Shown here piece after piece: positions 43,440 through 54,599 of a stretch of 64,000 nucleotides of DNA. The position numbers and the translations under genes were made by a program. The notes under the pieces were generated by a model, which saw nothing but the letters and a program-made list of their open reading frames with translations, was not told the origin of the DNA and ran no database searches. The stretch lies in the NCBI RefSeq assembly GCF_020166435.1, contig NZ_JAINZP010000010.1:1-64000 (forward strand), given 5' to 3'. The first letter of the stretch is position 1. Every line of letters starts with the position of its first letter. This DNA comes from Pectobacterium versatile (GTDB lineage Bacteria; Pseudomonadota; Gammaproteobacteria; Enterobacterales; Enterobacteriaceae).

Positions 43440-43523
43440 GCTTATTTTCCAGTTGGCCAGAGGACAACAAACGGGATGACGTGTATCAGGCAGTTGCAGC
43501 CATTGACGAAACGGGAAGTCATT

Positions 43524-45440
43524 ATGAATAGCAAAGTGCTCGCTGAAAGTATTCTGGAGTTAGTCGGAGGGGAAACCAACGTTTCTACTCTGGTGCATTG
43601 TGCAACACGCTTGCGCTTTAAGATTGTTGATCACGGTAAAGTGGATGTGGCTGCGCTTGAGGCGCTGGATGGCGTCATTACGGTCATCAATGCTTCAGGG
43701 CAATTGCAGGTGGTGATCGGGAACCGAGTGCCGGAGGTGTACCGCGCTTTTGGTTCGATCTCCAGGCTGCTGGAGGACGGCGACGGGAAACGCCAGACGG
43801 CGGGAAGTGAGGCATCAACGTCTGCGATGGGACGGCTGATCGATCTGGTTGCTGGGATCTTTACCCCATTGCTGGGGGCGATGGCGGCAGCAGGGGTGCT
43901 GAAAGGCGCGTTGTCTATTGTGATTGCGCTCGGGTGGCTGAATACCAAAGAAAGTACCTATGTCATCCTGCACGCGGCGTCTGACAGCCTGTTTTATTTC
44001 CTGCCGATGCTGTTGGCGATTACCGCCGCGCGTAAATTCGAAACCAACATTTTTGTGGCCGTGTCGGTTGCTGGCGCACTGGTTTACCCCACGATTCAGG
44101 GGCTGTTCGACGCCGGTCAGCCCGTGACGTTCTTTGGCCTGCCCGTTGTAATGATGAAGTACACCTCCTCGGTGATCCCGATCATCTTCAGCGTGTGGCT
44201 GATGTCGTATATCGAGCGTTTCCTGAATCGCCATATTCATGAAAGCGTGCGCAATATCCTGACGCCGTTCTTCCTGCTGGTACTGATGGTGCCCCTCACG
44301 CTGATGACCATCGGGCCGATTGGCATTTCAGCCAGTAAGCTCATTGCGTCGGTGTTTGTCAGTATCTATAGCTTCAACCCGATTATTGCCGGGGCGCTGA
44401 TTGCGGCGGCATGGCAGATTTTAGTGATCTTCGGCGTGCACTGGGGCTTTGTGACCGTGTTTATTAATGACCTGTCGGTCATGGGACACAGCTACCTCAA
44501 AGCGGCATCCAGCCCGTCGGTCTTCGCTCAGTCTGGTGCGCTGCTGGGCGTCATGGTGCGCACCAAAGATAAAAAGCTCAAAGCGCTGGCGGGCAGTACC
44601 TTTATCGCCTCGCTGTTTGGCATTACAGAACCTGGCGTTTACGGCGTCACGCTGAAGCTGAAAAAACCGTTTATCTGTGCGGTGATCGCAGCTGCACTGG
44701 GGGGCGCGATCGTCGGTTACGCGAAAAGCTCGGCAATCTCCATGGGAATGCCCGGTTTACTGACGCTGCCGATTTTCTACGGCGAAGGTTTTGTTGGGTT
44801 CCTCATCGGTTGCGCTATCGCCTTCGCGGTGAGTTTTGTACTGACCATCATTGTTGGTTTTGACGATCCCGTACCTCCTGCTGAAAAAGCGCCAGTGCCA
44901 ACGCACTCTCCAGCAGCGACACCTGCTGCACCTGCATCACGTCAGCACGCCAATGCTGTGCCCCTACCGCTGAAAGACGCACCTGAAACGGCTGAACAGC
45001 TGGGGTCGCCAGCAAAAGGTGAACTGATCTCGCTGGAAGAGGTAAATGACAAGGTGTTCTCTTCCGGCGTCGTCGGGCAGGGTGTCGCCATTCTGCCGCA
45101 GGAAGGGCGCATCTATTCTCCTGTGGATGGCGTGATTGCCAGCACGTTCGCGAGTGGCCATGCCGTCGGCATTCTTTCGCAGGGCGGTGCAGAGATTCTG
45201 ATCCATGTCGGCATCAACACGGTACAACTGGAAGGCCAGCATTATCAGATGCACGTTGCAGAAGGCGACAAGGTGCAAAAAGGCCAACTGCTACTGGAGT
45301 TTGATTTGGAAGCAATCCAGAAGGCGGGCTACGACACAGTGACGCCGATGGTAATAACGAATGCTGATGAGTACCACCTCTTCAGTCCGGGCACCACACG
45401 TCAGCTGATGGTAGGGGAGACGATTATCGCGCTGGCATAA
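43524..45440 (+). CDS. bglF: Beta-glucoside PTS permease EIIBCA (BglF type)
   Basis: 638-residue fused phosphotransferase permease. EIIB at ~1-85 with the phosphorylated cysteine C26 in VHCATRLRF; EIIC at ~105-465 with the ITEPGVYGV motif; a Pro/Ala linker; EIIA-Glc-like domain at ~500-635 with the active histidine in ILIHVGIN. It imports and phosphorylates beta-glucosides such as arbutin, salicin or cellobiose; the sugar is not fixed by sequence. The ATG at 43524 is preferred to upstream frames. CRP-RAT-terminator leader, and in bgl systems the permease itself modulates the antiterminator. Confidence 0.92.
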   Translation: MNSKVLAESILELVGGETNVSTLVHCATRLRFKIVDHGKVDVAALEALDGVITVINASGQLQVVIGNRVPEVYRAFGSISRLLEDGDGKRQTAGSEASTSAMGRLIDLVAGIFTPLLGAMAAAGVLKGALSIVIALGWLNTKESTYVILHAASDSLFYFLPMLLAITAARKFETNIFVAVSVAGALVYPTIQGLFDAGQPVTFFGLPVVMMKYTSSVIPIIFSVWLMSYIERFLNRHIHESVRNILTPFFLLVLMVPLTLMTIGPIGISASKLIASVFVSIYSFNPIIAGALIAAAWQILVIFGVHWGFVTVFINDLSVMGHSYLKAASSPSVFAQSGALLGVMVRTKDKKLKALAGSTFIASLFGITEPGVYGVTLKLKKPFICAVIAAALGGAIVGYAKSSAISMGMPGLLTLPIFYGEGFVGFLIGCAIAFAVSFVLTIIVGFDDPVPPAEKAPVPTHSPAATPAAPASRQHANAVPLPLKDAPETAEQLGSPAKGELISLEEVNDKVFSSGVVGQGVAILPQEGRIYSPVDGVIASTFASGHAVGILSQGGAEILIHVGINTVQLEGQHYQMHVAEGDKVQKGQLLLEFDLEAIQKAGYDTVTPMVITNADEYHLFSPGTTRQLMVGETIIALA

Positions 45441-45451
45441 CGCAATAAATC

Positions 45452-45479
45452 AGACGGCGCTGTGTGAACACGCCGTCTC
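45452..45479 (+). terminator. Terminator after bglF
   Basis: AGACGGCG and CGCCGTCT form an 8-bp stem just past the stop codon, followed by CATATAAAAAA rather than a T tract. Confidence 0.6.
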
Positions 45480-45483
45480 ATAT

Positions 45484-45520
45484 AAAAAAGTCCAATGCTT
45501 TATCATAACCGATGGACTTT
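45484..45520 (-). terminator. Terminator after the sugar porin
   Basis: On the minus strand AAAGTCCA pairs with TGGACTTT across a 17-nt loop and runs into TTTTTTATATG, ending the treB-to-porin transcript. Confidence 0.72.
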
Positions 45521-45530
45521 ACCTTTAAGT

Positions 45531-47024
45531 TTAAAATAGATATTTAAAACGAATACGTGCGCCATAGCGATCTTTATCACTGCTGTCCACGGAGGTCATT
45601 TCTCCACGGCCATTGATATATGAATAATATGCGCCAAGGTACGTTTTAAAGTTATCCATCTCTAAGATGCTAGGTAATTCATAAGAAGTAAATATAGTAT
45701 GGATATCATATTTACCGGGGCGTAGCGATTTTTCTTGGCCGGGGTTGAAATTGGTATCGCGTTGATAATATTTAATGTCATTATGTGCATAAATATAACC
45801 AACTTGTAGCTTGCGCCATAATACGTTGGCGCCAATTGAGAAATCACTTTCGTTTTTCGCATCTAAATATGCCGTGCTTAAGTTAGCAGCGATGCCATTT
45901 TCAGCGTTATTTTTTAAGTTATCCCAATTAAAATTGAGGCCATAGCCGGTGCGACGAGATTGGTCTTCAAATTTCCCATCTGCATTTTGGTAACCGTAGG
46001 CATTGCGTATGACGTTAGCGTCTATAGCTCCCGCAATGGTGAGGTTATCTTTTTTCCATGCGGCCACAGGGCGAACGTAAACCACGTTTTTGCGATTATC
46101 TAATTGTCTACCATGATATTTTCCATCTTGGAACACCTTACTACCATCTTCAACTAATGTGTTCACTTCGAAGTACCAATCATTGTAAGTGCTACTTAAA
46201 TTCATGGCTCCACCATTATCACTTCTTCCTCGACCTTCTTTCATCATATAGACATAGCCAAATCCGTCTGCATATAAATCGTTGGCGCTGTTTCCCGAGT
46301 GTTCAACGAAGGTATCTTGGTTAAGTGGGAACATATCGTAGGCTTCATATCGGCCAATCTTGAAGTTCCACTTATTATCTTGACCAAAATAGAAGACGGC
46401 ATCATCGAGACCCATAGAACCGGACATGTTGGCCAAAGGTTGTACCTTAAATCCGGCACGGTTCCCATTGGACAGCGCTCGCTCTCCGTCTAAACCAATC
46501 AAGAGGCGCCCATTCAAATCCCAACGCTCTTTATCTTTAAAGTCTCCAGAGCCATCCCCAGCCTGAGTGTGCATTGAGGTGATTTGGCCTTTGCGGCTCG
46601 CACCATCAATGTTAAATTCGACATCGCCATATAGCTTTAATGTGCCCCAATCGCTGTTATTTGCCACAAAACTGTTAGATTTTTCAGCGACGCTTTGTCG
46701 TTTTTCTAATTGATTGACTTTTTCATTAGCCAGTGTGGCATTCGCTTGAGCCTGATCTGAATTTTTCTCAAGAGTAGTGATACGCTGCTCTATATTCACT
46801 GAATTCGTGATTTTTTGCGGTGTATTCTTATTCGTGATTAATTGCTCAAGCCTCGCTGCTTTTTGTTCCGCAGAGGCCGCTCTTGATTCTGCATCTACCG
46901 CTCGTTTCTCAAGAGAATTTAAACGTGCTTCAATGTCGCTTAACGAACTATCTGCGTTAACTAATAAAGGAGAGGCACTAAGTAAAAACCCTATCACTAA
47001 CGATAGCTTATTTATTCTCATCAT
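45531..47024 (-). CDS. Carbohydrate-specific outer membrane porin (ScrY/BglH-like)
   Basis: 497 residues: signal peptide (~1-24), a periplasmic coiled-coil region (~27-115, heptads such as LSDIEARLNSLEKRAVDAES), then an 18-strand LamB-type beta barrel ending in the terminal phenylalanine RFKYLF. This layout is that of ScrY, RafY and BglH. It is the last gene of the treB cassette, 66 bp after pgmB, so it probably admits the same disaccharide. Ribosome binding site AGAGGAATAA. Lower GC than flanking genes. Confidence 0.87.
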   Translation of the reverse strand: MMRINKLSLVIGFLLSASPLLVNADSSLSDIEARLNSLEKRAVDAESRAASAEQKAARLEQLITNKNTPQKITNSVNIEQRITTLEKNSDQAQANATLANEKVNQLEKRQSVAEKSNSFVANNSDWGTLKLYGDVEFNIDGASRKGQITSMHTQAGDGSGDFKDKERWDLNGRLLIGLDGERALSNGNRAGFKVQPLANMSGSMGLDDAVFYFGQDNKWNFKIGRYEAYDMFPLNQDTFVEHSGNSANDLYADGFGYVYMMKEGRGRSDNGGAMNLSSTYNDWYFEVNTLVEDGSKVFQDGKYHGRQLDNRKNVVYVRPVAAWKKDNLTIAGAIDANVIRNAYGYQNADGKFEDQSRRTGYGLNFNWDNLKNNAENGIAANLSTAYLDAKNESDFSIGANVLWRKLQVGYIYAHNDIKYYQRDTNFNPGQEKSLRPGKYDIHTIFTSYELPSILEMDNFKTYLGAYYSYINGRGEMTSVDSSDKDRYGARIRFKYLF

Positions 47025-47090
47025 TTATTCCTCTTTTTCTATGTAAAGTGTTACCAATAATCGGATAAAATATTTTGGAGTAAGATTTAC

Positions 47091-47762
47091 TCACTTTTCA
47101 ATTTTGTTTTTTTGTTCAAATAACATATCAGGGGATATGTTATTTAATGAGGGAACAACAATCTTAGCTTCAATTAGACTTTCTTGTTTTCCGGCGATAC
47201 CCACCGAAAATATTTTTGCTTTATTCAATGCAGCAATGCCCGACAAGGCATCTTCAAACCCTATTGCATTGTGAGGTTCGACACCGATAGACTCCGCCGC
47301 CTTCAGAAAAATTTCAGGGTCAGGCTTCCCATTTTTCAAGGTGTCTGGGTCAACAATGTGTTGAAAGTAATCGCTAATATTTAGTTTTTCTAAAATAGAT
47401 TTGGCATTTTTTGATGCGGATGCAATGGCGCATGGAATGCCAAGTTCTTTTGCCCTTTTAATAAATGAAAGAATACCGGGGAGGATATCTTTTTCAGTTA
47501 ACTGGTTAAGCAGATTGACGTAGTGCTCATTTTTTTCTTGAGCCATTTTTTCTTTTTCCTCTGCGTCAAATTCACTTGATTTCCTGCCATGTTGGAGAAT
47601 CCTTTCCAAGGATTCTCCACGGCTGATTCCCTTTAACGCTTCATTAAACTCCTCATCGATATCTATTCCGATTCTATTGGCGAGATGCTTCCATGCTATA
47701 AAGTGATAATGCGCGGTATCTACAATAACGCCGTCTAAATCAAAGATGAAACCGTTATTCAT
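47091..47762 (-). CDS. pgmB: Beta-phosphoglucomutase
   Basis: 223-residue HAD-superfamily mutase converting beta-glucose-1-phosphate to glucose-6-phosphate. Nucleophile motif FDLDGVIVDTAHYH, the substrate loop around KGISRGESLERIL, SASKNAK and the metal motif GFEDALSGI are present and match L. lactis and E. coli PgmB-type enzymes. Its start overlaps the phosphorylase stop by 4 bp. Pairing with a GH65 inverting phosphorylase, which yields beta-glucose-1-phosphate, fixes its role well. Confidence 0.93.
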   Translation of the reverse strand: MNNGFIFDLDGVIVDTAHYHFIAWKHLANRIGIDIDEEFNEALKGISRGESLERILQHGRKSSEFDAEEKEKMAQEKNEHYVNLLNQLTEKDILPGILSFIKRAKELGIPCAIASASKNAKSILEKLNISDYFQHIVDPDTLKNGKPDPEIFLKAAESIGVEPHNAIGFEDALSGIAALNKAKIFSVGIAGKQESLIEAKIVVPSLNNISPDMLFEQKNKIEK

Positions 47763-50464
47763 GACTTTTGACCTTCAGTGTAGTTATACGAGAAATCAAC
47801 TCTGGGGATTACGAAGTGTTTTTTATGGTTAATCTCTACCTGGGCATTTTCGCTGGCAGAAATGATGATTTCTTTATGTGAAATAACAAAATAATACTGG
47901 ATGCCACGATGCTGTAGATTGAACCGAATACATTCCCACCCCTTTGGCAGTGACGGTGCAATTCGTAAACACACGTGACGGATATCTACCCCTGCATAAG
48001 CGATGATTGTCGTATTTAACGTCGCAGCCATAACACCGGTGTGGATACCTTCAGCGGTAGTACCACTTTGAATGTCCTGATAATCGGAAGACAACGCTTC
48101 GCGGTATAATTTCCAGGATAGTTCATGAAAATTGATGTCGTTCGCGAGCTGAGCATGCACGATGCGCGACAGTGTAGAACCATGAGATGTACGTTCCAGA
48201 TAATAATTCAGGTTTTTTCTTGCATAATTTTTTCTTAGTTTATATCCCATGTTTTTTAATATCTCTGTTACGTCATCTTCAGAGAAATTATTAAATATCA
48301 TTAAGGCATCCGCTTGTTTTGCAACTTTATAATGATCCGCGCTCTTTCCTTCAGCACGTAAAATACGATCCATACGATAAATATTTTGGTGTTTTTTTCT
48401 ATAGTGCTTCCAGTCAATCTCTGTTAGATCAAAGTAACCATCGAATTGTGAAATGATGTCATCTTCGATAATTAAAGATAAGTTTTTCCCTACATGATCG
48501 ATTTCAGTCCAAAAATTTGTATTAACGGTATCGATAAGATGGATGTCGAATCGCTGACGTAATTCAGCTAACTTCGAAAACAGCCATGAAACCATCAAAT
48601 TGGTGTAAGCATTATCCTTGAGCCCATCGGTTTCACTACCAACAGAGTGTTCATGGAATTCATCAGGACCCATCACACCTCGAATAGAGTAACGCTGGGT
48701 TATTTCATTCCACTGAGATTTACTTAACCAGAATCGAGCAATTTCCATAAGTATTTCAATACCATGAGACTCCATGAACTCGTTATCTTTGGTATTGATC
48801 CAATACAGCCAAATGTTATAGGCAATCGCTAACGAAACATGCCGTTGCAGGCGGCTATAATCCGGATCCCACTCACCATTGAGTGGGTTTAGGTGAACAA
48901 TTTGCGTTTGCTCAGTACCATCATGGCCTGATTGCCATGGGAACATCGCGCCCTCATAGCCTTCTTCTTTTGCTGCGTGGCGCGCGGCAGATAGACGGTT
49001 ATATCGGTACATCAATAACTGGCGAGCAGTTTGAGGGAAATGCATGATATAAAAAGGTAGGATGAATATTTCATCCCAGAATATATGCCCTCTATAGGCC
49101 TCGCCGTGTAATCCCCTTGCCGTCACTGACACATCAAGTTGGTAGCTTTCATTGCTGAAAGGTGAGCAAGAACAGAGTAAATGATAAGTATGAAGGCGTA
49201 GGAGTTTTTGAGACATCAAATCGCCATCAATAATAATATCTGTTTTCTCCCACAGCGATTCCCAGGATTGTTGAGTTGATTTTAATTGAGTAGCAAAATC
49301 AACTAATACCGACTCATCTGCAATGTGCCACTCATCGGGAAATACCGTCGATAGTCGAATATTGACGCTTTTTTCAAACTGGTAAGTTTTCCCTTGTACT
49401 ACAGGGCATGTGATCGATTGGCTAACCTTATTCGGCTCTTCCTGAATGTGAATATCTTTTTCTGTGAAAAAATTCCCTCGTATTGTTGAGGAAAATCCCA
49501 TCCCGATTTCCGATTGAAGGGTTCTCGCATTTAAATAGGCATTTTTACCTAACACATTACAAGACAGCACTTCATAGTGATGTGACGTGAGGCTACGGTA
49601 ACGCGCTACGCCATAGTTATGTGTTTCCCCATCAATGTGGGTGCTGATGGTGATATCACCATCAAAGTTAAGAGGTGTGAAGCAATACTCAATTGCGAAA
49701 CGAGTAGGGTGAGACATATCCGCCAGTATTTGGCTGCGGATTTGAATTTGGCGTTGTTGTTCGTCCTCCACCAGCCAATTTTGTTCTAGCACGCCATTTT
49801 TTAGAGAAAGATTACGATAAAGCGCAATATTCTTACTGGTTTCGGGCGTTAACCAATCACCGTTGCCGATTTTAATCCGGATCGCACGTGCGTCTGGCGC
49901 ATTGACAAAATCCTCGTTGGTGACCGTATGATCAGCAACATTTGATTGGGCTTGGTTATAACACCCAGCAAGATAAGTCGCGGGGTATGTCGCATCATTT
50001 GCCTGCATATCAGGCATTGCGCCACGTACACCTAAATAACCGTTTGCTACCGTTAATAGCGATTCTACAGCGTATTCTTCTTTCCCTGCGGTAAACCCGC
50101 AGTAATTAATTCCCCAACTGAGCGCATCATATTGCTGCTCGATAGCCTTTTTCAGACTGGCAGGGGAGAGTGTGTCTGCGTACTCTTTAGCAATAAATGG
50201 CACATTAAAAATTTCCGAAAATGCCTTTTCTAAATTAATAACTTCTTGGTTAGTCAATTCGATACAAAATAGCGGGTAATGTGGCAATTTTTCTCCGCTT
50301 ATAAACCCACCTTTTACCAAAGGGAAATCATTTTGTATCTCTCTTAATGCTGCTAAACATGCCTTGGTGGATAAAGAATTCCATTCCATATCATAGTGAT
50401 GTTTAATCTCATCTAAGGAGGCATCAAGTCCATTTTTGTTTATTAAGATAGCGAGATAATGCAT
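47759..50464 (-). CDS. GH65 glycoside phosphorylase, probable trehalose-6-phosphate phosphorylase
   Basis: 901 residues. From ~108 on it is a complete family GH65 enzyme: SLLTVANGYLGVRG, FWDEIFILPFY, the general acid glutamate E602 in GVMGPDEFHE, and the phosphate loop TSHGSTLS (760-766). GH65 members include maltose, trehalose, kojibiose and trehalose-6-phosphate phosphorylases. Placement after a TreB-like PTS, which delivers trehalose-6-phosphate, and before pgmB points to trehalose-6-phosphate phosphorylase; maltose- or other disaccharide-phosphate substrates cannot be excluded. The first ~105 residues are an extra domain not usual in the family. AT-rich. Confidence 0.85.
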   Translation of the reverse strand: MHYLAILINKNGLDASLDEIKHHYDMEWNSLSTKACLAALREIQNDFPLVKGGFISGEKLPHYPLFCIELTNQEVINLEKAFSEIFNVPFIAKEYADTLSPASLKKAIEQQYDALSWGINYCGFTAGKEEYAVESLLTVANGYLGVRGAMPDMQANDATYPATYLAGCYNQAQSNVADHTVTNEDFVNAPDARAIRIKIGNGDWLTPETSKNIALYRNLSLKNGVLEQNWLVEDEQQRQIQIRSQILADMSHPTRFAIEYCFTPLNFDGDITISTHIDGETHNYGVARYRSLTSHHYEVLSCNVLGKNAYLNARTLQSEIGMGFSSTIRGNFFTEKDIHIQEEPNKVSQSITCPVVQGKTYQFEKSVNIRLSTVFPDEWHIADESVLVDFATQLKSTQQSWESLWEKTDIIIDGDLMSQKLLRLHTYHLLCSCSPFSNESYQLDVSVTARGLHGEAYRGHIFWDEIFILPFYIMHFPQTARQLLMYRYNRLSAARHAAKEEGYEGAMFPWQSGHDGTEQTQIVHLNPLNGEWDPDYSRLQRHVSLAIAYNIWLYWINTKDNEFMESHGIEILMEIARFWLSKSQWNEITQRYSIRGVMGPDEFHEHSVGSETDGLKDNAYTNLMVSWLFSKLAELRQRFDIHLIDTVNTNFWTEIDHVGKNLSLIIEDDIISQFDGYFDLTEIDWKHYRKKHQNIYRMDRILRAEGKSADHYKVAKQADALMIFNNFSEDDVTEILKNMGYKLRKNYARKNLNYYLERTSHGSTLSRIVHAQLANDINFHELSWKLYREALSSDYQDIQSGTTAEGIHTGVMAATLNTTIIAYAGVDIRHVCLRIAPSLPKGWECIRFNLQHRGIQYYFVISHKEIIISASENAQVEINHKKHFVIPRVDFSYNYTEGQKS

Positions 50465-50493
50465 GTTGAACTCTTTTTAAATATTGGAATTTA

Positions 50494-51915
50494 TTAGGAA
50501 GTGACCAAGGTGCCTTTTCGTTTTTGGTAACGATAAACAGTCATTGTCAATACGATTGGGATAACGATGGCGACGATCATGGCAATAAAGTAAACCCCCC
50601 AAAATGTCGGTTGAATTGACAGAATACCGGGGATCCCTCCTACACCAATTCCGTTAGAAAGCACACGAGCATAGCCACAAATAAGTCCCGCTGATGCAGC
50701 ACCGATCATCGCGCAGAGCATCGGGAAGCGATAATGTAAGTTGACGCCGTACATGGCTGGTTCAGTCACGCCTAAGTAAGCGGAAATTGCGGCAGGTATA
50801 GTTACTTCACGCTCGTTATGTTTTTTGCTAATCAAAATGATGCCGACAACTGCAGAAGCTTGTGCAATGTTTGAGAGTGCGATGATTGGCCAAATCGGTG
50901 TTCCTCCCACGCTTTGTGTCAATTGCATGTCGATTGCCAAAGTCGTGTGGTGCAGGCCAGTAATGACTAAAGGTGAGTAGAAAAAGCCAAAGATCATCGA
51001 GCCAATGGGGGCGAAATCGCCTAGCATTAAATAGCGAACCCCTTCTGAAATGCCATTGCCGATAAGACGGCCAATCGGCCCAAGGATGGTATGGGCAACG
51101 GTAACAGAAACCAATATAGTGATGATGGGGACGATGACTAATGTCAGGTAATTAGGAATGTATCTGCGTAATCTAACTTCAAACCAACCCAAGAATAGCC
51201 CAGCCAAAATGGAAGGGATCACTTGAGCTTGGTAACCGACTTTCTGAATGGCAAAAATCCCGAAATCCCAGCTATCAGGAATCTGGCTTCCGGTGCCATA
51301 GGCATTCATTAATTGCGGTGAGACCAGCGTAATGCCTAATACGATACCCAGTATGGGGGTGCCGCCCATTTTTTTTACCGTAGACCAGCAGATTGCTACA
51401 GGCAAGAAATGGAAAATTGCCTCGCATGGTAACCATAAGAAGTCATATATTGGTTGGAGCCATGAATATGTCGAGACCAGCGTTTTATCGCCGTATACTG
51501 GCATTTCTCCAATGACGTTTCTTAAACCAAGCAATAAACCACCGCAGATTAAAGCGGGTAATAGCGGGATGAATATCTCAGATAAATTCGCAATTAATTT
51601 CTCCCAAAATTTCATATTTTTTTGGGCGGAAATTTTTGCTTCTTCTTTGCTGGTTCCTGTGATGTTTATTTTTTTTATCATTTCTTTATAGTAAGCATCT
51701 ACATCCGTCCCTATTATTATTTGGAATTGCCCTGCATTGTTGAAACATCCTTTTACTACAGGGATGTCCTTAATTCCTTCAATGTCTGCTATCTCTGGAT
51801 TATTCAATACGAACCGTAGGCGAGTTAGGCAGTGAGAAACGGTAATGATATTATCTTCACCGCCAATTAATTTGATTATCTGATCTATCACATCAAAGTT
51901 TATTACTTTATTCAT
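50494..51915 (-). CDS. treB: Trehalose-type PTS permease EIIBC (TreB-like)
   Basis: 473 residues, exactly the length of E. coli TreB and clearly similar throughout. EIIB has its cysteine C29 in VSHCLTRLRF; EIIC carries KKMGGTPILGIVLGITLVSPQLMNAYG, GLHHTTLAIDMQ and GVTEPAMYGVN. There is no EIIA domain, so it should depend on the general EIIA-Glc (Crr). It imports trehalose as trehalose-6-phosphate. A TreR-type operator and CRP-like site precede it; the GH65 gene follows after 28 bp. Confidence 0.92.
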   Translation of the reverse strand: MNKVINFDVIDQIIKLIGGEDNIITVSHCLTRLRFVLNNPEIADIEGIKDIPVVKGCFNNAGQFQIIIGTDVDAYYKEMIKKINITGTSKEEAKISAQKNMKFWEKLIANLSEIFIPLLPALICGGLLLGLRNVIGEMPVYGDKTLVSTYSWLQPIYDFLWLPCEAIFHFLPVAICWSTVKKMGGTPILGIVLGITLVSPQLMNAYGTGSQIPDSWDFGIFAIQKVGYQAQVIPSILAGLFLGWFEVRLRRYIPNYLTLVIVPIITILVSVTVAHTILGPIGRLIGNGISEGVRYLMLGDFAPIGSMIFGFFYSPLVITGLHHTTLAIDMQLTQSVGGTPIWPIIALSNIAQASAVVGIILISKKHNEREVTIPAAISAYLGVTEPAMYGVNLHYRFPMLCAMIGAASAGLICGYARVLSNGIGVGGIPGILSIQPTFWGVYFIAMIVAIVIPIVLTMTVYRYQKRKGTLVTS

Positions 51916-51975
51916 GTGGTTTATCTCTAGTTTCGTATCCTTAATTTAAAATACGTAGAGACACACCCATCCTCA

Positions 51976-51991
51976 ATGGGAACGTTCCCAT
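51976..51991. promoter_or_regulatory. TreR-type operator upstream of treB
   Basis: ATGGGAACGTTCCCAT is a perfect 16-bp palindrome with the GGGAACGTTCCC core of the E. coli trehalose operator. It lies 61 bp before the treB start, between treR and treB. Confidence 0.9.
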
Positions 51992-51993
51992 AA

Positions 51994-52009
51994 ATTGATG
52001 AGTGTCACA
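51994..52009. promoter_or_regulatory. Candidate CRP site upstream of treB
   Basis: ATTGATGAGTGTCACA: perfect right half (TCACA), left half 3 of 5. It abuts the TreR operator on the upstream side. Confidence 0.55.
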
Positions 52010-52026
52010 TAATTTATATTTTTAAC

Positions 52027-52974
52027 TTATGGTTTTAAAATAGTGTGTTTTTTTTGTGGGGATTTTCCGTCAAGGATGTTAATCAATAATTTGGCGGAAA
52101 TTTCACCGCTCTCACGGAAGCCTAAACGGCAGGTTTTTGTTTCAGGAAATAAAAATTTTAGTAAATCGTTACGACCAATACAAGCAACAAAAATATCATT
52201 AATATTTTGAATTTTTAAGTATTTTTGTACTCCAAACGCTAATGAATCTGTGGCACATAAAATGGCTTGGGGGTGTGTAGAAACCACCTTTTTTGCGAGC
52301 GAATAACCGCTCTGATAATTGAGCTCCCCTAACTCGGCATTAACGGTTAATTGATGTTGCTGGCAATAATTCTCGTAAGCTTTAAAACGTAGTAACCCAG
52401 TTGTTTCATCTTGTAAATCAATACCGACGTAACCAATTTCACTGAATTTTTTTTCTTGATGCAAGAATTCCATGAGATGATTCACGGCACCTGTATCGTC
52501 ATTACAAACACAGGTATAACCGTCAAATGAACGAGCGATGATGACGATACGCTGCTGCCAGGAAGCTAGCTGTTCACTGGAGACCCCAGTGAATGCGAAT
52601 AATATCACCCCATCAATCTTTCGCTGTTCCAACATTGTTAAATGTTCATCAACTTTTTTGGGATCGAACTGGCTTTCCAGAATAATGGGGTCGATACCAT
52701 TAGCATGCAAAAGGGGTAAAATGGCTCTCACCGTTTGGTTTTCTGCATACGAATCAAGGCGGGTTACGATAATCCCAACGGTTTTGTTCGCTAATCCACG
52801 CATCGCTCGGGCTGATTTCGACGGCGTGAATTGATACTGCTCAATCACCGCGAGTATTTTTTTGCGTGTCACCTCATTAACTTTCTGGTCGTTATTGATT
52901 ACACGGGAAACAGTCGATTTCCCCACATTACAAAGGGCCGCTATGTCTTTTATCGTCAATTTATGCACGGTCAC
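52027..52974 (-). CDS. treR: LacI-family repressor, TreR-like
   Basis: About 315 residues, as in E. coli TreR. N-terminal helix-turn-helix LTIKDIAALCNVGKSTVSRVINN, hinge with SARAMRG, then a periplasmic-binding-like effector domain. TreR is induced by trehalose-6-phosphate, the product of TreB. The frame runs to a TTG at 52989; GTG codons at 52974 and 52968 fit the TreR N-terminus better, and 52974 has GGA at useful spacing. No ATG start is available. It lies upstream of treB in the same orientation. Confidence 0.9.
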   Translation of the reverse strand: MTVHKLTIKDIAALCNVGKSTVSRVINNDQKVNEVTRKKILAVIEQYQFTPSKSARAMRGLANKTVGIIVTRLDSYAENQTVRAILPLLHANGIDPIILESQFDPKKVDEHLTMLEQRKIDGVILFAFTGVSSEQLASWQQRIVIIARSFDGYTCVCNDDTGAVNHLMEFLHQEKKFSEIGYVGIDLQDETTGLLRFKAYENYCQQHQLTVNAELGELNYQSGYSLAKKVVSTHPQAILCATDSLAFGVQKYLKIQNINDIFVACIGRNDLLKFLFPETKTCRLGFRESGEISAKLLINILDGKSPQKKHTILKP

Positions 52975-53134
52975 TGTATTCCAATACAAGACGTCTCTTA
53001 AGACTTGCGATGTTAATATAGTTGCCCATACTTAACAATTACAGGCTCACAGTCTGTATAACTTCAAAGTTTTTGATAGGAATGCCAGCTAAGCCCACTA
53101 CGTCATGAATGGATAACCCATCCCCGAATAGATC

Positions 53135-53165
53135 AGAAGGCAACAAATATGTACGCCTTCTGGTT
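53135..53165. terminator. Hairpin between bglA and treR
   Basis: AGAAGGC pairs with GCCTTCT across 13 nt in the 215-bp gap between the bglA end and the treR start; GGTTTTC follows on the plus strand. Probable terminator of bglA transcription, weak as judged by the minus-strand tail. Confidence 0.4.
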
Positions 53166-53189
53166 TTCTGCACTGCTACAACGATATTG

Positions 53190-54599
<1,410 letters not shown>

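Follow-up and report, generated by a model that had tools for sequence, protein, structure and literature searches.

The TrePP-PgmB pathway of trehalose-6-phosphate (T6P) degradation was described for Lactococcus lactis (Andersson et al. 2001, as cited in PMC12125463). In their passages on this subject, two reviews place the T6P phosphorylase route in Gram-positives (PMC10969515) or in Gram-positives and fungi (PMC12125463), although the enzyme is also named in papers on Morganella. According to the relevant sections of these papers, the trehalose-fermenting Morganella morganii subsp. sibonii is marked by the genes treR-treB-treP, with treP being named trehalose 6-phosphate phosphorylase, and the presence of these genes accompanies trehalose fermentation (PMC7446228, PMC8638253, PMC11264931). 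One out of 11 Morganella cheese isolates was found to be non-fermenting for trehalose and carries an IS5 in treB (PMC8638253). For Proteus mirabilis HI4320, poor growth of a ptsH mutant on trehalose was reported (PMC13289894). Here, we analyzed a gene cassette with the order treR-treB-GH65-pgmB-porin, which is located in a 64-kb stretch of a Pectobacterium versatile contig (referred to as the window; all coordinates are window positions). Consistent with the initial annotation of this DNA, the listing of open reading frames (ORFs) of the window contains five intact ORFs, all on the minus strand, at 45531-52974.

Our analyses suggest that the cassette is a trehalose operon of the treR-treB-treP kind that was acquired horizontally. 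It would degrade T6P by phosphorolysis under the control of TreR, and it also comprises pgmB and a porin gene. We consider this reading highly probable (roughly 90%). The genes and proposed control elements are:

52027-52974, minus strand: treR, LacI-family trehalose repressor of 315 amino acids (aa), GTG start at 52974 (TIGR02405)
51996-52009, minus strand: candidate CRP-like site TGTGA-N6-TCA, beginning 20 bases upstream of the operator
51978-51989, no strand assigned: proposed TreR operator GGGAACGTTCCC, a perfect palindrome in the treR-treB gap
50494-51915, minus strand: treB, trehalose phosphotransferase system (PTS) EIIBC, 473 aa (PRK11007, TIGR01992)
47759-50464, minus strand: predicted GH65 inverting phosphorylase, proposed treP/trePP, 901 aa (three Pfam GH65 domains)
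47091-47762, minus strand: pgmB, beta-phosphoglucomutase, 223 aa (TIGR01990)
45531-47024, minus strand: porin of the Porin_8/RafY glycoporin type, 497 aa (PF16966, 430.7 bits)

The GH65 protein contains all three Pfam GH65 domains. In agreement with the initial annotation, its catalytic features are intact, as the general acid E602 is identical in 11/11 orthologues and the phosphate loop TSHGSTLSR is preserved at residues 759-767. The closest solved GH65 structure is 9lb6, which was deposited as ‘Trehalose-6-phosphate hydrolase’. A profile of the 11 orthologues scored 680.6 bits with 9lb6, compared to 379.7 bits with the kojibiose phosphorylase 3wiq and 203 bits with the maltose phosphorylase 1h54. 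Phylogenetic analysis was based on a tree of 22 rows, which included the 11 GH65 proteins from cassettes, 9lb6, and seven other enterobacterial GH65 proteins (L010-L016). The cassette proteins formed one cluster (support 94/98) and grouped with 9lb6, two GH65 proteins encoded on Lactobacillales plasmids, and one otsB-linked GH65; the rows of 9lb6 and of the otsB-linked protein were flagged as long branches. The seven other enterobacterial proteins, which belong to the same family and share 26–28% identity, split off with 100/100 support. Proteins on the 9lb6 side of the tree share an insertion of eight residues behind the GPDE motif, a segment from W-x-x-D to Q-x-H, and an R-x-D-R segment, whereas this insertion and both segments are missing in the seven proteins of the other clade. 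Judged by these sequence comparisons, the cassette enzyme appears to belong with the T6P-acting GH65 enzymes and not with the maltose or kojibiose enzymes, the reference being 9lb6 with its activity taken from the deposited name. We thus propose that it is a trehalose-6-phosphate phosphorylase (EC 2.4.1.216). Its scores were below the cut-offs of the kojibiose hydrolase model NF053734 (173.9 vs. 800 bits) and the GH65 domain model NF010380 (270 vs. 838 bits). No Pfam family matched the N-terminal ~115 aa (window positions 50120-50464) at a meaningful E-value. The GH65 proteins of the Lactobacillales plasmids are ~905–911 aa long, and the chain of 9lb6 is devoid of the N-terminal ~115-aa part. 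On a Lactiplantibacillus plasmid (L047), a 905-aa GH65 from the same side of the tree adjoins pgmB, and the annotation of the 16-kb stretch contains no PTS gene. For the GH65 protein of the window, a structure model computed from a two-row alignment of the window and Samsonia sequences had a mean pLDDT of 34.8 and was unusable.

The other cassette genes could be assigned by family models. TreR scored 372.8 bits with TIGR02405 (cut-off 357.35), its closest solved relative is the TreR structure 4xxh, and TreB exceeded the cut-offs of both PRK11007 (827.3 vs. 409 bits) and TIGR01992 (643.7 vs. 591.95 bits). PgmB scored 267.3 bits with the bPGM equivalog model TIGR01990 (cut-off 189.4), and its ORF shares 4 bp (ATGA) with that of GH65. 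The TreR-like repressor, the 473-residue TreB-like EIIBC, and the beta-phosphoglucomutase with a 4-bp overlap, all of which had been recognized beforehand, were thereby confirmed. A correction was necessary for the porin, which had been regarded as LamB-type: in the Pfam search, no match to a LamB model was obtained at E ≤ 0.001 and only PF16966 was above its cut-off. The N-terminus of the porin contains a stretch that, judged by eye, resembles a coiled coil. The start of treR was placed upstream by the ORF tool, at a TTG at 52989. Among the TreR-family proteins of the window genome, only that of the cassette was above the cut-off, and the same search yielded no TreR above the cut-off in any of six cassette-less congeners (i.e., genomes of the same genus).

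The control region upstream of treB was analyzed in the 11 genomes that make up the cassette set. All nine cassettes that bear treR contain GGGAACGTTCCC or GGGATCGTTCCC, i.e., GGGA(A/T)CGTTCCC, in the gap between treR and treB, whereas the palindrome is absent upstream of treB in both cassettes without treR. The treR-treB gap of Escherichia coli K-12 contains a 12-mer identical to GGGAACGTTCCC. Based on this palindrome ahead of treB and on the family score, the cassette TreR would be a repressor of the E. coli type. Two further matches to GGGAWCGTTCCC in the window genome both lie within coding ORFs, and the control pattern used in the palindrome search also matched in three comparison genomes (G002, G003, and G361). 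The case for the operator is hence one of position and conservation, not of rarity. A TGTGA element precedes treB in 11/11 cassettes, and in all nine cassettes that have an operator the element lies exactly 20 bases upstream of it; the fuller TGTGA-N6-TCA occurs in four of the 11, and the TGTGA element was also seen in E. coli. The treR-treB gap (51916-52026) is predicted to form an unusually stable RNA fold (z −5.0). A larger hairpin around the operator was set aside, as its outer arms were unpaired, by eye, in the congener G001.

The cassette is an acquired, AT-rich insert, which was delimited by alignment to two cassette-less congeners (G013 and G021) and by its composition:

~45479-53188, no strand assigned: acquired insert of ~7.7 kb
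45483-45520, minus strand: candidate operon terminator just past the porin stop, a hairpin followed by a U run according to the RNA fold

The GC content is 0.408 in the insert, compared to 0.519 in the remainder of the window. The insert is flanked by bglF (43476-45440, plus strand) and a GH1 gene (53190-54593, minus strand), and in G013 and G021 bglF adjoins GH1, with ~30 bp separating the aligned ends. Two other cassette-less congeners (G018 and G020) possess different genes at this site, which by eye resemble genes for sulfatases and a radical-SAM maturase. The hairpin downstream of the porin gene is likely the terminator of the operon; the minus-strand fold of 45441-45530 had a z of −3.2, a value for the whole stretch, which includes a second, bglF-side stem. 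As side observations, the gap between bglF and GH1 (window positions 45440-53190; L090-L093) is a variable site across the genus, and similar sulfatase-like genes flank the cassette in the congeners G001 and G015.

According to the initial annotation, no treC was present. This holds true inside the window, but the genome-wide search that had been suggested there revealed a treC on contig C1 of the window genome (G000:C1:84681-86312; 843 bits, cut-off 799.05), directly after a treB. Since this treB-treC pair is present outside the window, the cassette is an additional, second route in this organism and not a replacement. With the TreB of E. coli, the TreB on C1 shares 79% identity and that of the cassette 63%, and the two TreB proteins of the window genome are 62% identical to each other. 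No treR adjoins the pair on C1, and this contig contains no GGGAWCGTTCCC. Therefore, the control of treB-treC seems to differ here from that in E. coli. Control of this pair by TreR was also considered and found to be unsupported, as three weak palindromes upstream of its treB were dissimilar to the operator.

Homologs of the GH65 gene were detected in 9/392 family genomes (E ≤ 1e-90) and, in a separate search, in 11/147 nearer relatives (E ≤ 1e-50), seven of the latter being only 28–30% identical. The resulting cassette set comprises 11 distinct genomes, including the window genome, G015, and P. mirabilis H110. The core treB-GH65-pgmB is present in all of them, and the complete order treR-treB-GH65-pgmB-porin in eight, counting the window. 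One cassette (G165) is without a porin match. Two others (G408 and G071; L059, L061) consist of treB-GH65-pgmB only, with no adjoining treR or porin match and no TreR palindrome, and both keep the TGTGA element upstream of treB. A treC above the cut-off occurs in 4/11 cassette genomes, namely the window genome, G001, G015, and Samsonia, while G165 has a single treC match below the cut-off, and no treC was detected at E ≤ 0.001 in the remaining six (G176, G361, G423, G408, G071, and P. mirabilis). The cassette can thus exist in genomes where treC is not detected, and as treC was not found in six of the seven cassette genomes outside Samsonia and the genus of the window, the cassette may be the only T6P route there. 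One of these organisms (G071) has a genome of merely 0.84 Mb, which lacks any TreR-family match and any treC match and keeps treB-GH65-pgmB. The retention of the three genes in such a strongly reduced genome suggests a real dependence on this route. It seems fairly likely, with less confidence than for the nature of the operon, that treR-treB-GH65-pgmB-porin is a self-contained and self-regulated module that moves between enterobacterial lineages, possibly serving as the sole T6P route where treC was not found and in parallel to treB-treC in Samsonia and the genus of the window.

For the function of the operon we infer the substrate of GH65, the direction of its reaction, the role of the porin, the binding and effector of TreR, and the role of CRP. 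Trehalose would cross the outer membrane, possibly with the help of the RafY-type porin, and would then be imported and phosphorylated to T6P by TreB at the cost of one phosphoenolpyruvate. With inorganic phosphate, GH65 would convert T6P to glucose-6-phosphate and beta-glucose-1-phosphate, and the latter would be converted to glucose-6-phosphate by PgmB, so that no ATP would be spent on glucokinase. TreR would repress the operon by binding to GGGAACGTTCCC ahead of treB and would be released by T6P, and CRP probably acts as activator. If this holds true, a cell with both routes has two T6P-consuming branches of unequal energy yield, of which only the acquired one is gated by T6P. Moreover, the absence of treC from a genome does not mean that trehalose is not used.

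Several observations weigh against this interpretation. The window genome could dispense with the cassette for the breakdown of T6P, as it has its own treC. The structure 9lb6 is only 37% identical to the cassette GH65, and its assignment as a T6P phosphorylase goes back to the deposited name and to the title of one cited paper (Feng et al. 2025, known from this citation and likely the publication of the structure). No NCBIfam model was above its cut-off for the GH65 of the window, nor for the orthologues from Proteus and the Morganella-like genomes, and the published treP was equated with the cassette GH65 by gene order. Exact copies of the palindrome occur in the cassette-less genomes G002, G003, and G004; the three copies examined all lie inside ORFs, and G003 contains a further one. 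Within the window, the palindrome search allowing ≤2 mismatches gave one match, compared to a mean of 1.77 in shuffled sequences. Finally, treC is by no means a constant gene of the family, being above the cut-off in only 176/392 family genomes and in 3/9 cassette genomes of that sample. Its absence from six cassette genomes is thus no statistical depletion, and we rejected it as statistical proof of a replacement.

Among the other functions considered, an activity of GH65 on a different phosphorylated alpha-glucoside (e.g., kojibiose- or maltose-phosphate) appears unlikely. In this scenario, the specificities of TreB and TreR would have shifted and trehalose would be left to treB-treC on C1. 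The presence of this pair in the genome fits such a division of labor, as does a TreB tree of 16 rows, in which the 11 cassette TreB proteins and five treC-linked ones are placed on opposite sides of a branch with 100/100 support. However, TreB and TreR of the cassette both exceed the cut-offs of trehalose equivalog models, the operator is identical to that of E. coli, and in Morganella trehalose fermentation accompanies an operon that is composed in the same way, as stated in the pertinent passages of PMC8638253 and PMC11264931. It is even less probable, and in fact very improbable, that T6P is dephosphorylated and GH65 then phosphorolyses free trehalose (EC 2.4.1.64 type). The GH65 family does include trehalose phosphorylases, and the alphaproteobacterial relative in our tree adjoins otsB, but the cassette encodes a PTS transporter, treB adjoins GH65 in each of the 11 cassettes, and no OtsB-like phosphatase is among the five cassette genes, the remainder of the genome not having been searched for one.

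The cassette could also be a redundant and decaying acquisition that has no role in the window genome. Its rarity, with the GH65 gene present in 3/25 genomes of the genus and the other 22 being without cassette, and the co-occurrence with treB-treC would be in line with decay. Yet all ORFs are intact, the promoter elements are conserved, and the ratio of nonsynonymous to synonymous substitution rates (dN/dS) was 0.05–0.17 in all 15 gene-by-genome comparisons (five genes vs. G001, G015, and Samsonia). All five genes are thus under purifying selection, and we regard decay as improbable, marginally more so than the action on another alpha-glucoside. The reading of the cassette as a TreR-controlled operon for T6P phosphorolysis, which the initial annotation had put forward with a TreR/TreB unit of the E. 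coli type, is well supported at the level of sequence by the operator, the grouping with 9lb6, the six cassette genomes without a treC match, and the Morganella operon. What could not be upheld of it are the replacement of treC, the LamB porin, and the notion of a distinct variant, the latter because the arrangement has already been described as treR-treB-treP in M. morganii subsp. sibonii.

The gene order of this published operon is the same as in the window, and the passages in question name only treR, treB, and treP. In three Morganella-like genomes of our dataset (G176, G361, and G423, with G176 and G423 being ascribed to Morganella by the genus label they share with G361), treR-treB-GH65 is likewise followed by pgmB and the porin gene. 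Their GH65 proteins are 64–65% identical to that of the window, the operator is present, and no treC match was obtained. Unlike these genomes, the window genome also contains treB-treC, and it carries the cassette within AT-rich DNA inserted between bglF and GH1. A literature search, for which no claim is made regarding subscription journals, found no publication that combines Pectobacterium with a T6P phosphorylase. Our results add details on the genes and the regulation of an enterobacterial trehalose route, which the two reviews still place outside this group. The main points of interest are that this route coexists with treB-treC and that its core is kept in a reduced genome. Compared to L. 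lactis, where by description a GH65 phosphorylase likewise cleaves T6P and a phosphoglucomutase acts next, the cassette has a TreR and TreB of the E. coli type, plus a porin. A near-match DNA search of E. coli genomes found nothing, and the treBC-type arrangement of E. coli, with treC next to treB, is absent from the cassette. The regulatory and uptake genes resemble treR-treBC of E. coli K-12 (TreR 47% and TreB 63% identical, the same treR-treB order, and the same GGGAACGTTCCC in the gap), whereas GH65, pgmB, and the porin gene stand in place of the GH13 hydrolase gene treC.

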